A stretch of DNA of 33,871 nt. Source: a virus. The notes under the pieces were generated by a model, which ran no database searches, was not told the origin of the DNA, and saw only the letters and a program-made list of their open reading frames with translations. Each line of letters begins with the position of its first letter. Position 1 is the first letter of the stretch. Positions 16,086-25,271 of the stretch are shown here, in pieces. A program made the position numbers and the translations under genes. Where the stretch lies: the IMG/VR virus record IMGVR_UViG_3300046733_001593, positions 1-33,871 of that record, one strand, 5' to 3'.

Positions 16086-16114
16086 TTGGAAAAGCCAAAT
16101 ATCTTTCGTATATT
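16086..16114 (+). promoter_or_regulatory. Promoter, TTGG-N19-TATATT, with TTGG-N5-CCAA palindrome
   Basis: TTGG at 16086-16089 and TATATT at 16109-16114, 19 bases apart, with TTTCG before the TATATT. The inverted repeat TTTGG-AAAAG-CCAAA spans 16085-16099. The leader then leads to GGTTATG at 16145-16151. Confidence 0.75.
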
Positions 16115-16148
16115 TACACTGTAAATGATGATAAAACAAATAAAGGTT

Positions 16149-16379
16149 ATGACAGAACAAGATCAATATGATGCTCTCCAAGAGTACAATTATTTCGAAA
16201 TGTTAGTAAATACCAAAGAGTATGTTACTAAAGATGAATATAATTTCATCATTAATTATGATAAAACTGAAAAAAATAACTTCAGTTATGTTGATAGTTA
16301 CTTAGGTGATTATTTAAATTTTAACGTTTATAGTGAGTATGATCACGAAAAGCGTCAATTAAAAATGGAGCAGGGATAA
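16149..16379 (+). CDS. Hypothetical protein
   Basis: 76 residues from ATG 16149 (MTEQDQYDALQEYNYFEML). An in-frame ATG at 16125 lies within about 11 bases of the TATATT box and would leave almost no leader. The conserved GGTTATG context also sits at 16149, so the shorter form is preferred. The protein is acidic and Tyr/Asn rich with no recognisable motif. Its stop shares one base with the start of the esterase gene, so the two are probably co-translated. Confidence 0.6.
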   Translation: MTEQDQYDALQEYNYFEMLVNTKEYVTKDEYNFIINYDKTEKNNFSYVDSYLGDYLNFNVYSEYDHEKRQLKMEQG

Positions 16380-16864
16380 TGAAAAAGGTTTTATATTTAC
16401 ATGGTCTTGAAAGTAATCAAGGCGGTCCAAAGGTTGATTTTTTAGCAAACGAATTTATAGTTTATGCCCCAAAAATGGATTATAATGATCCTGAATTGAA
16501 TATTAAAATGTTCTTTACAATACAGGATCTAAAACCTGATCTTATTATTGGTAGTAGTATGGGTGGTTATGTTGCAGATATATTAGCTCAAAAATACGGA
16601 ATCCCAGCTATCCTATTTAATCCTGCTCTTCACAATCGTAGCTTTAATCCTTCTATTGAATACCCAATTGAGAGTGAGCAAGCTGATCTTCAAGAACGTA
16701 AAATTGTTGTATTAGGTATAAATGATAAAATAATTGATCCTGAAATCACTAAAATGATGCTTGAAAATAATCGTAAATACACAATTATTGAACAAGAAAT
16801 GTGTCATCAAACTCCTCTTAACATATTTATTGACATAATCAATAGATATAAAAATGAAATGTAA
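16379..16864 (+). CDS. Alpha/beta-hydrolase, YqiA-like esterase
   Basis: 161 residues. The start KKVLYLHGLES is the first strand and oxyanion region of small alpha/beta hydrolases. The nucleophile elbow is IIGSSMGGYVADILAQKYG, with GSSMG fitting G-x-S-x-G. Asp of LGINDKIID and His of MCHQTPLN complete a plausible Ser-Asp-His triad. The size and the order of motifs resemble the YqiA/UPF0227 esterases. It would be cytoplasmic, as no signal peptide is present. The substrate is unknown. It overlaps the upstream gene by one base, and a cysteine-rich micro-ORF starts inside its last codons. Confidence 0.8.
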   Translation: MKKVLYLHGLESNQGGPKVDFLANEFIVYAPKMDYNDPELNIKMFFTIQDLKPDLIIGSSMGGYVADILAQKYGIPAILFNPALHNRSFNPSIEYPIESEQADLQERKIVVLGINDKIIDPEITKMMLENNRKYTIIEQEMCHQTPLNIFIDIINRYKNEM

Positions 16865-16922
16865 TTGTATTATTTGTAACTGCGGTAAACCATGTGATTG
16901 CCCTTGTTGTAATTGTAAGTAA
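16854..16922 (+). CDS. Cysteine-rich microprotein, metallothionein-like
   Basis: 22 residues, nine of them cysteine, at positions 3, 5, 8, 10, 14, 16, 18, 19 and 21 (first part MKCNCIICNCGKPCDCP). The clusters CxCxxCxC and CxCxCCxC are the thiolate pattern of metallothioneins. The frame starts 11 bases inside the esterase gene and stops two bases before the next ATG, so it fills the gap exactly, with an A-rich start context (AAAAATG). It probably binds Zn, Cu or Cd ions if it is made. It is too short to match a family by eye, and expression is not proved. Confidence 0.6.
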   Translation: MKCNCIICNCGKPCDCPCCNCK

Positions 16923-16924
16923 AA

Positions 16925-17488
16925 ATGAACTTTGATTTAAAAAAATATTTAGCTGAGGGTAAATTATTCGAAGAGGAAGGGTTTAAGAAAAACTCTTGGG
17001 AATACCTTACAGATGAAGAAAAATCGAAGTTTTCAAAAGAAATATTTGACTTAATAGATAATGCCTATGCTCCTATAGGAGGAAACCCAAATTATCAATC
17101 CCCATCAGATGTAGATGGTAGTGAAGGTGATGCTAATTATCTAGTAATCGATTTTGATGATGACCCAGAATTTGATGCTGTTGTTGTTGATAAAATAAAA
17201 CCATCAGGAGTAAAAGGAGCAGCTATGGGTCATGATGGATCTAAAGAAGCAAGATCATTAGCTGTTAATTTCCTATCTATAATGCTTAAAAATAAAGGCC
17301 ATTATATTGAAGTCTCAGGTAAATTAAAAGATATTCTTATTGCTAAAGGTGTTCCAGTAGTTACAGATAAAAAAACTATTCGTACAGCTTTAAAAGGTAA
17401 AAAAATTGAAATGAATGATGATGGTACTTACCAACGTTATTTAGGTGGAGAAAAACATACAAAAACTATGATGGGAAACCCATTATAA
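16925..17488 (+). CDS. Hypothetical protein, possible acetyltransferase-like domain
   Basis: 187 residues. Residues 1-20 look like a helix (NFDLKKYLAEGKLFEEEG). The middle carries an acidic Asp-rich stretch around 60-80 (YLVIDFDDDPEFDAVVVDK), then GVKGAAMGHDGSKEARSLAVNFLSIML and a C-terminal basic part. The Gly/Ala turn before a helix recalls the acyl-CoA loop of GNAT enzymes in similar T4-like phage proteins, but the match is weak and no catalytic residue can be named. It is separated by 2 bases from the cysteine-rich peptide. A promoter follows its stop. Confidence 0.6.
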   Translation: MNFDLKKYLAEGKLFEEEGFKKNSWEYLTDEEKSKFSKEIFDLIDNAYAPIGGNPNYQSPSDVDGSEGDANYLVIDFDDDPEFDAVVVDKIKPSGVKGAAMGHDGSKEARSLAVNFLSIMLKNKGHYIEVSGKLKDILIAKGVPVVTDKKTIRTALKGKKIEMNDDGTYQRYLGGEKHTKTMMGNPL

Positions 17489-17490
17489 AT

Positions 17491-17519
17491 TTGGCTCCCT
17501 CAAAGGGAGTTTGTATATT
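17491..17519 (+). promoter_or_regulatory. Promoter, TTGG-N19-TATATT, overlapping a hairpin
   Basis: TTGG at 17491-17494 and TATATT at 17514-17519, 19 bases apart. Between them CTCCC (17495-17499) and GGGAG (17505-17509) form a hairpin that could end the upstream transcript. The leader ends in GAGTTATG at 17543. Confidence 0.7.
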
Positions 17520-23140: not shown

Positions 23141-23514
23141 TGTATACATACCACGCCACATTAGATAGAGTAGTAGATGGAGATACAGTAGACGCCTTAG
23201 TAGATTTAGGATTCGATACTTGGAAAAAAGTTAGAATTAGAATGATGGGGATGGATGCTTGGGAATCTAGAACTCGAAATAAAGAAGAAAAGAAAAAAGG
23301 ATTAGCAGCTAAAGCTCGCTTAATTGAAATTCTGAATGAAAATGAAAATAAATTTATTTTAGTATCTCATGGAGTAGGAAAATATGGTCGTTGTTTAGGT
23401 GAAATTTATGTTGAAAACACCTATAATGACAACCCAAATCTACCAGAAATAAGTGTAAATAAAATTTTAATTAACGAAGGCCACGCTAAAGAATATTACG
23501 GAGGAAAACGATGA
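23140..23514 (+). CDS. Staphylococcal nuclease-like (SNase) protein
   Basis: 124 residues. The family order is clear: RVVDGDTVDALVDLGF, RIRMMGMDAWESR with the catalytic-region Arg, Asp and Glu, a Lys-rich helix (KEEKKKGLAAKARL), and GKYGRCLGEIY with the second Arg. It ends with NKILINEGHAKEYYGG, the usual terminal helix. There is no signal peptide, so it acts inside the host cell, perhaps degrading host nucleic acids while modified phage DNA is spared, which is inference. It overlaps both neighbours by 1 and 4 bases. Confidence 0.85.
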   Translation: MYTYHATLDRVVDGDTVDALVDLGFDTWKKVRIRMMGMDAWESRTRNKEEKKKGLAAKARLIEILNENENKFILVSHGVGKYGRCLGEIYVENTYNDNPNLPEISVNKILINEGHAKEYYGGKR

Positions 23515-25271
23515 CAAAAGACGGAAAACAAATTAGCTTAGGCTTTTCAGTAGGACATGATAAAGGAGCAGTTATTGTAATTGATGATAAAGTCCAAGTA
23601 GGAATTATGGAAGAAAGATTATCACGAGTAAAACGTGATCAACCTTTTAATACTGATATTCCATTATTATCAATTAATTATTGTTTAGAAACATTAAATC
23701 TTACATATGATGATGTAGATGTTTATTGTTATAATACAGCAGAAATGGACGATTTTGTTGAAGAACAATTTACTCAATATTTAGCTCAACCTTTAGATAA
23801 ACTTTTATTTGTACCTCATCACGTAGCTCATGCTTATTCTACATTTTTTGCTTCTGGATTTGATGAAGCAGCAGTAATTGTAGCTGATGCTATGGGTAAT
23901 GTTCATGATATTAATAGTAAAGCTCATGAATATTTTAAAGAAAAATATGGTGATTTACCTAAATTACCTAAGGGGTTAAAATGGGGGGAATCAATAACTT
24001 TATTTAGATTTGATAAAGGTAGTTATGATGAAGTACTTAAAAAGTGGATCAAATACCCAGAACCTTATACTTATAAAGATGAAGAACTTTCTATAGGCTG
24101 CATGTATGCTCAAGGAACAATGCAGTTAACTTATGATGAAAAAACATCTAATTGGCAAGCTGGTAAGTTAATGGGTTTAGCTTCATATGCAGATCCTAAA
24201 TGGTTAGCAAAACAAGAATTTATTGCTACTATTAAAGAAGATGAAAGTGGAGAAATTGTAGATTTTTTTATTCCTGGAACCCAAATATATCCTGGAGTAA
24301 CTTATAAAGCTGATTTTAAACGTAAATCAAATGTAGCAGGTATTTACCAACGTGAACAAGTCCGTTTAACTACTATGCTAGCTAAATATGTAAAACAACT
24401 TACAGGACTAGATAAAGTATGTTGTTCAGGAGGTTCTTTTCTTAATTGTAATGCTAATGAAGCAATTATTAAATCTGGGTTGTTTAAAGAATGTTATTTT
24501 ACTCCCCCAGCAGATGATAGTGGTATTCCTTTAGGTGCTGCTTTTTATGGTAAACATTTCCTTAATGAATGGAAACCTATTGAGAATAATCCTTTTATGA
24601 GTCCATATTTTGGAAAAACTTATACTAAAAATGATATTGTAAAAGACATCCAAACATACATTAAAGAAGAACAATCTGAGTTTTTTAAATATAATAATAT
24701 TATTTATTTTAATACTAGGGAAGAAAGAAACCGATATATTAGTGAATTACTTTTAGAAGATAAACCTATTGGTTTATTACAAGGAGGATCTGAAATTGGT
24801 CCTCGAGCATTAGGTAATAGAAGTATTATAGCAAATCCTTCCTCAATTTGGATGAAAGATTATATTAATCATGAAATCAAAAAACGTGAATGGTATCGAC
24901 CATTTGCTCCCTCAGTCTTATTTGAAAAACAAAGTGATGTATTTGATTTAGATATTTTTTCCCCATATATGCTAGTCACAGCATATTGTAAAAATGAATG
25001 GAAAGAAATAATCCCTTCAGTAGTTCATATTGATGGAACTTCAAGATATCAATCAGTGACTTCTGAAATGAACAAATCTTATTATGATTTAATTAATGCA
25101 TTTTATGAAGCAAGTAGTATTCCCTTAGTATTAAATACTTCATTTAATGGTCCTGGAGAACCAATAGTTGAAACTCCTTTAGATGCTATTAAAAGTTATG
25201 TAAAAAATGGATTACCTGTTTTAGTATTAGAAAATGTAGTTATTGAAAAAAAAGATTATAGAATTCACTAA
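23511..25271 (+). CDS. Carbamoyltransferase, NodU/CmcH/TobZ family
   Basis: 586 residues, the full two-domain length. The N-terminal Kae1-like domain starts SLGFSVGHDKGAVIVID, with VPHHVAHAYSTFF supplying metal-binding histidines and VCCSGGSFLNCNAN and DDSGIPLGAA completing the nucleotide site. The C-terminal YrdC-like part has GSEIGPRALGNRSI, REWYRPFAPS and VLNTSFNGPGEPIVETP. The family moves a carbamoyl group from carbamoyl phosphate, through carbamoyl-AMP, to a hydroxyl or amine of a small molecule or nucleoside. Phage homologues are known, mostly with unknown substrates. Its place among preQ0 genes makes a modified nucleobase a good candidate substrate, which is inference. Confidence 0.9.
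   Translation: MTKDGKQISLGFSVGHDKGAVIVIDDKVQVGIMEERLSRVKRDQPFNTDIPLLSINYCLETLNLTYDDVDVYCYNTAEMDDFVEEQFTQYLAQPLDKLLFVPHHVAHAYSTFFASGFDEAAVIVADAMGNVHDINSKAHEYFKEKYGDLPKLPKGLKWGESITLFRFDKGSYDEVLKKWIKYPEPYTYKDEELSIGCMYAQGTMQLTYDEKTSNWQAGKLMGLASYADPKWLAKQEFIATIKEDESGEIVDFFIPGTQIYPGVTYKADFKRKSNVAGIYQREQVRLTTMLAKYVKQLTGLDKVCCSGGSFLNCNANEAIIKSGLFKECYFTPPADDSGIPLGAAFYGKHFLNEWKPIENNPFMSPYFGKTYTKNDIVKDIQTYIKEEQSEFFKYNNIIYFNTREERNRYISELLLEDKPIGLLQGGSEIGPRALGNRSIIANPSSIWMKDYINHEIKKREWYRPFAPSVLFEKQSDVFDLDIFSPYMLVTAYCKNEWKEIIPSVVHIDGTSRYQSVTSEMNKSYYDLINAFYEASSIPLVLNTSFNGPGEPIVETPLDAIKSYVKNGLPVLVLENVVIEKKDYRIH

Follow-up and report, generated by a model that had tools for sequence, protein, structure and literature searches.

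Animals, plants, fungi and some bacteria are known to make metallothioneins. The β domain of the mammalian protein is about 30 residues long and makes up half of a two-domain protein, and the bacterial metal binders SmtA, BmtA and PmtA are larger than the peptides described here, use His ligands and have a zinc-finger-like fold. The nine cysteines of the mammalian β domain hold a Zn3Cys9 cluster (PMC10243857), and Zn3Cys9 has also been described in the CXC domain of MSL2 (PMC3447885). The very short fungal proteins of family 8 follow the pattern X2-[CXC]-X5-[CXC]-X3-[CXC]-X2-C-X3 (PMC4755600). No report of a phage metallothionein was found in the open-access full-text literature.

The DNA analyzed here is a 33.9-kb IMG/VR virus fragment, and the whole of this stretch is called the window. 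The virus is a T4-like phage. Phage-family matches in the window include a DNA polymerase, a DnaB-like helicase and the large subunit of a ribonucleotide reductase. The best-listed cultured phages for the polymerase, T4-like cyanophages plus a Microcystis phage, share no more than about 34% identity with it. The phage also carries an auxiliary gene for a Nol-like carbamoyltransferase at 23511-25271 (PHROG 1601, E 5e-101).

A first-pass annotation had pointed to a 22-residue, nine-cysteine open reading frame (ORF) set exactly between two genes, and had argued that a chance ORF would not be cysteine-rich in so ordered a way. Translation of the window bears out the frame and its placement. The ATG lies at 16854 and the last base of the TAA at 16922, and 9 of the 22 residues are Cys (41%), laid out as C3-x-C5-xx-C8-x-C10-xxx-C14-x-C16-x-C18-C19-x-C21. 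The frame shares 11 bases with the 3' end of the 161-codon esterase ORF (16379-16864), and a gap of 2 bases separates its stop from the next ATG at 16925. The argument against chance also holds, as none of 100 second-order Markov shuffles of the window yielded an ATG ORF of 15-45 residues with at least 6 Cys and at least 25% Cys, and the unshuffled window contains exactly one by the same measure, 16854-16922; stronger evidence comes from the family found elsewhere. The features of the locus are collected in Table 1.

Table 1. Features of the peptide locus, with window coordinates
Feature	Position	Strand	Basis or remark
Promoter-like site TTGG-N19-TATATT, 5' of four-gene unit	16086..16114	+	motif scan
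First gene of predicted four-gene unit, 84 aa, unknown function	16125..16379	+	no family match
Upstream gene, UPF0227/YqiA-like hydrolase (the esterase ORF)	16379..16864	+	Pfam PF05728, E 8.5e-13
A-rich start context, no Shine-Dalgarno motif, CATAATCAATAGATATAAAA	16834..16853	+	A enrichment in family; window sequence
Nine-Cys peptide gene, MKCNCIICNCGKPCDCPCCNCK	16854..16922	+	translation; 22 codons; 164-locus family
Downstream gene, 187 aa, unknown function	16925..17488	+	no PHROGs or significant Pfam match
Hairpin and next promoter-like site, closing the unit	17491..17519	+	fold z-score -2.6; motif
TTGG-N19-TATATT starts	1888, 2996, 3646, 14207, 15661, 16086, 17491, 18995, 21426, 26142, 26545, 27242	+	motif
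Peptide MKCNCKVCNCGTSCDCTCCNC, paired with the window 22-mer as synthesis candidate			

Among relatives of both flanking genes, the peptide is present in only one further contig, L003. The peptide there is identical, with 3 differences in 69 bases, all 3 synonymous and none non-synonymous, and DNA identity to the window is about 84% in the upstream gene and about 70% in the downstream gene (the latter only an approximate value). In the remaining relatives nothing separates the hydrolase gene from the downstream gene, and in most of them the downstream start overlaps the esterase stop. The empty junction in the closest relatives is AAAAATGAGCTTTGATTT, and the peptide gene in the window is a clean 71-bp insertion flanked by AAAAATGA. 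Gain in the window rather than loss elsewhere is inferred because the filled state is rare, and the absence of the peptide from most relatives makes it dispensable at this locus. A conserved frame with synonymous changes in relatives had been proposed at the outset as a check on the peptide, and a broken frame in close relatives as grounds for dropping it. L003 meets the first with its purely synonymous changes, as do the more than 160 virus loci that share the frame; no broken frame was seen, the close relatives lacking the gene cleanly.

A search of IMG/VR for the nine-Cys spacing, followed by filtering, gave at least 164 loci; their peptides, of which at least 117 are distinct, share the core CxCxxCxCxxxCxCxCCxC. 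This sample comes from pattern scans and is non-random, and the true family is larger than counted. Members are 20-23 residues long, with one exception of 36 among the matches listed, and the family consensus is M-K-C-N-C-K-x-C-N-C-G-T-S-C-x-C-x-C-C-N-C. The 36-residue form is a minus-strand ORF (L141) with an extra Cys-rich N-terminal half, MRNRQNCNCENCKCQKACNCMKCNCSKSCDCACCDC, as if two-domain. All nine Cys are identically spaced across the 115 distinct cores listed; the residues between them differ greatly from member to member, apart from Gly9 and Ser11 of the core, which lie in the central turn. The C-terminal end falls exactly at Cys9 in 160 of the 164 loci listed and one residue later in 3. 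Mean Cys content is 43%, net charge is near zero and the mass is about 2.3 kDa. F, W, Y and H are absent from 116 of the 117 distinct peptides, and there is almost no His and almost no hydrophobic residue. The gene is single-copy per record wherever long records were searchable whole. Several searches added no members: the pattern CxCGKPCxC returned, apart from L003, unrelated frames only; a peptide BLAST against cultured phages gave no match, which carries no weight with the low-complexity filter active, and no pattern scan of cultured phages was made; and a DNA consensus search gave chance-level matches only (best E 0.5), among them one in STSV1 that was rejected as antisense within a large annotated gene.

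It could still be argued that such frames are chance ORFs or non-coding DNA. The loose nine-Cys pattern also matches many unrelated poly-Cys frames, which made up most of its matches and were filtered out, and pattern matches alone are no evidence. Half-motif baits were used, as the full pattern itself demands nine Cys. With the first half as bait, 90 of 90 frames carried the CxCCxC second half and stopped at once or one residue later, and with the second half as bait, 144 frames had a complete first half and 23 were unrelated. In the 57 distinct second halves that had not been selected for, the Cys codons were 146 TGT and 82 TGC with 0 replacements, and third codon positions were the most variable (1.06 bits vs 0.52 and 0.44). 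A further set of 78 loci was picked by c1, an oxidoreductase-like gene described below, independently of the Cys pattern. The complete nine-Cys peptide was present in 16 of these and absent from 54; 5 had too little upstream sequence and 3 had a different small Cys-containing peptide. Some of the 78 are near-identical to one another or repeats of earlier contigs. No decayed nine-Cys copies were seen among them, the peptide being intact or absent. Judged from the sequences, all nine Cys are under purifying selection. The bait, codon and c1-locus tests already contradict chance, as do the fixed start and stop positions, the third-position variation, the TGT/TGC exchange, the start signal and the all-or-none presence, so that a chance origin can be set aside almost entirely. 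The ORF at 16854-16922 is, on these comparative data, a real phage gene.

The start signal itself is distinctive. In 135 ATG-upstream cases from the family, A is found at -3 in 83%, at -6 in 75% and at -11 to -13 in 78-85%. At these positions the long ORFs that share the loci have 58%, 43% and 59-62%, and internal Met codons 31-38%. Few family ATGs follow a Shine-Dalgarno-like motif (2/133). The A-rich initiation signal of the peptide genes is thus stronger than in the neighboring long genes. A-rich starts without a Shine-Dalgarno motif are typical of Bacteroidota. In the window, four genes at 16125-17488, peptide gene included, sit between the promoter-like sites at 16086-16114 and 17491-17519. 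This TTGG-N19-TATATT motif occurs in 12 copies in the window, all on the + (coding) strand, vs 0.36 expected. It resembles the -33/-7 promoter of Bacteroidota and is likely the main promoter of the phage, of Bacteroidota type. Several copies overlap a hairpin, so that terminator and promoter seem fused at those sites. Among 84,980 bacterial and archaeal species, one genome each, a single real member of the family was found, on a contig (L341) binned as an uncultured Flavobacteriaceae MAG, where it is adjoined downstream by the same c1/c2 genes as in phage loci. The A-rich starts, the promoter-like motif and this contig are the grounds on which the hosts are inferred to be probably Bacteroidota.

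The neighborhoods of the gene are varied. The peptide gene stands in 63 different neighbor pairs among 114 loci, next to genes for capsid (gp23-like), tail and helicase proteins and to others of unknown function. This diversity speaks for a stand-alone function and for frequent transfer of the peptide gene. No metal-related genes were present among the identified neighbors. It is possible that the peptide instead acts against the host, taking Zn (or Cu) from, or docking onto, one host metalloprotein such as a Zn-dependent defense nuclease, RNA polymerase or a metal sensor. Such a role would suit the accessory-gene behavior seen in the many neighbor pairs, the all-or-none presence and the clean insertion in the window. 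We regard it as unlikely, as only Gly9 and Ser11 are fixed besides Cys, leaving little surface for a specific contact, and no clustering with defense genes was seen among identifiable neighbors.

The most frequent downstream protein is c1 (e.g., L237:6060-7355, minus strand). It is highly conserved and widespread in phages (at least 587 IMG/VR stretches), and Campylobacter phages encode distantly related proteins, 27% identical to it, that are annotated as NAD(FAD)-utilizing dehydrogenase. In many loci the genes that follow c1 are a small conserved one and one of the NadR-like AAA_28 type. The position of many members upstream of c1, together with the high thiol content and the ribonucleotide reductase large subunit encoded in the window, would be in keeping with a thiol redox sink, in which the Cys scavenge oxidants or keep phage enzymes such as ribonucleotide reductase reduced without forming a defined metal cluster. 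A pure sink would need no fixed spacing, however, and the nine-Cys spacing is fixed in the 115 distinct cores listed, as the half-motif baits bear out; c1 also has a promoter-like site to itself and is mostly found in loci that lack the peptide. We therefore give this explanation little credence, less than the counter-host role. Roughly 100 nt upstream of c1 (L237, L101, L274 and many others) lies a short hairpin whose loop, ATTCATAGC, is constant and whose 5-bp stem covaries (GACTG/CAGTC, GTCCG/CGGAC, GTTCG/CGAAC, GACAG/CTGTC, GATAG/CTATC), followed by a terminator-like hairpin and then TTGG-N19-TATATT. The conserved hairpin has no Rfam match and is possibly an unknown RNA element. A link between it and the peptide was rejected, as it accompanies c1 and occurs without the peptide in 40 loci. 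Just upstream of c1, the place of the nine-Cys peptide is taken by other small Cys-containing peptides in L465, L466 (34 aa) and L477 (27 aa), with the sequences MKRFICDLVYALSFRNICFGWCGSKIKCDCNCNC and MKDLICRAVCKLTFNKVCFGWCSPKCC, so this position may be one where small accessory genes tend to collect.

A small, Cys-rich accessory product might also be a disulfide-rich secreted or modified peptide, either antimicrobial or a RiPP-like precursor. Only 1-4 residues precede Cys1 in all but one of the members listed, leaving no signal or leader segment; the CxC and CC pairs, the 43% Cys and the near-absence of hydrophobics are ill-suited to a disulfide fold; and the identified neighbors include no modifying enzyme. 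This makes such a product very improbable.

The reading that we prefer, and consider likely, is that the ORF is a genuine phage gene and that its product, a minimal metallothionein-like peptide, buffers or chelates metal in the infected cell. What the sequence data show is the coding frame, the selection on Cys, the initiation context and the spread through many neighborhoods of uncultured phages; translation, metal binding, stoichiometry and benefit are inferred. The peptide would be made during infection from the A-rich start signal, inside a small operon, and would wrap its nine thiolates round a thiophilic metal in the cytosol. The load might be three Zn(II) or Cd(II) ions arranged as an M3Cys9-type cluster, or else several ions of Cu(I). 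By buffering or chelating metal, the peptide may keep free Zn or Cu from phage replication and assembly, or hold Zn for phage enzymes. A metal-thiolate role is favored because a peptide with 43% Cys, without aromatics, with hardly any His and with a net charge close to zero has little else to offer, and general buffering is preferred over a specific target because the inter-Cys residues vary, except Gly and Ser. If this is true, metal control is an unexplored side of the phage-host interaction. Gene callers with ordinary length limits are expected to overlook such very short accessory genes.

The peptide had also been called metallothionein-like. As a description of composition and Cys spacing this fits, as the peptides are small and very high in Cys in CxC and CC motifs with few or no aromatics, but the tests place it in no known metallothionein family. 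Pfam-A metallothionein models gave no match at the curated cut-off (1 of 20 members reached PF01439 at E 2.6, the window peptide none), and by hmmscan none of the 20 members matched NCBIfam, bacterial metallothionein models included, at E up to 10, or PHROGs at E up to 1. The 20-23-residue nine-Cys phage peptides are an unannotated family, in no Pfam, PHROGs or NCBIfam entry, and are here called metallothionein-like in working only. Nothing supports descent from fungal, mammalian or plant metallothioneins.

SmtA, BmtA and PmtA are likewise prokaryotic, cytosolic, Cys-rich metal binders, but the phage peptides have no Pfam or NCBIfam match to them. A domain of the wheat Ec metallothionein (PDB 2kak) was the sole PDB profile match, a CGCGEHCGCNPCAC-like stretch against CNCGTSCDCSCCDC, although at E 7.4 this is not significant, and the plant protein has a longer domain. 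The MSL2 CXC domain shares the nine Cys, which hold three Zn in MSL2, but is part of a DNA-binding protein, whereas the phage peptides, a mere 20-23 residues long, carry almost no net charge. The mammalian β domain likewise has nine Cys, a ligand set for three divalent metals, and several CxC pairs; the phage core, with 19 residues and a CC pair, is free-standing. The Neurospora crassa and Agaricus bisporus Cu-metallothioneins (Binz and Kagi family 8) are also very short and leaderless, with three CxC pairs and the same x3 spacer between pairs two and three (PMC4755600). They differ in having 26 residues and 7 Cys (phage 20-23 and 9), a first spacer of 5 rather than 2, fungal hosts and no detectable homology with the phage peptides, which end in C-C-x-C; the family 8 pattern is unmet, the phage arrangement being [CXC]-X2-[CXC]-X3-[CXC]-X-C-[CXC] in all 115 cores listed. 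The phage peptide is probably a tiny metal-binding protein, and it is smaller than these fungal proteins, which were formerly regarded as the shortest metallothioneins. A bolder proposal, which we can neither favor nor discount, is that the shortest known metallothionein-type protein (nine Cys, 19-residue core) is a stand-alone M3Cys9 micro-protein invented by phages, apparently those of Bacteroidota, and traded between genomes to control metal in the infected cell. If that is true, we would know of no natural peptide with a metal-thiolate cluster that is more compact than the 20-22-residue form, which is easily synthesized and directly testable.
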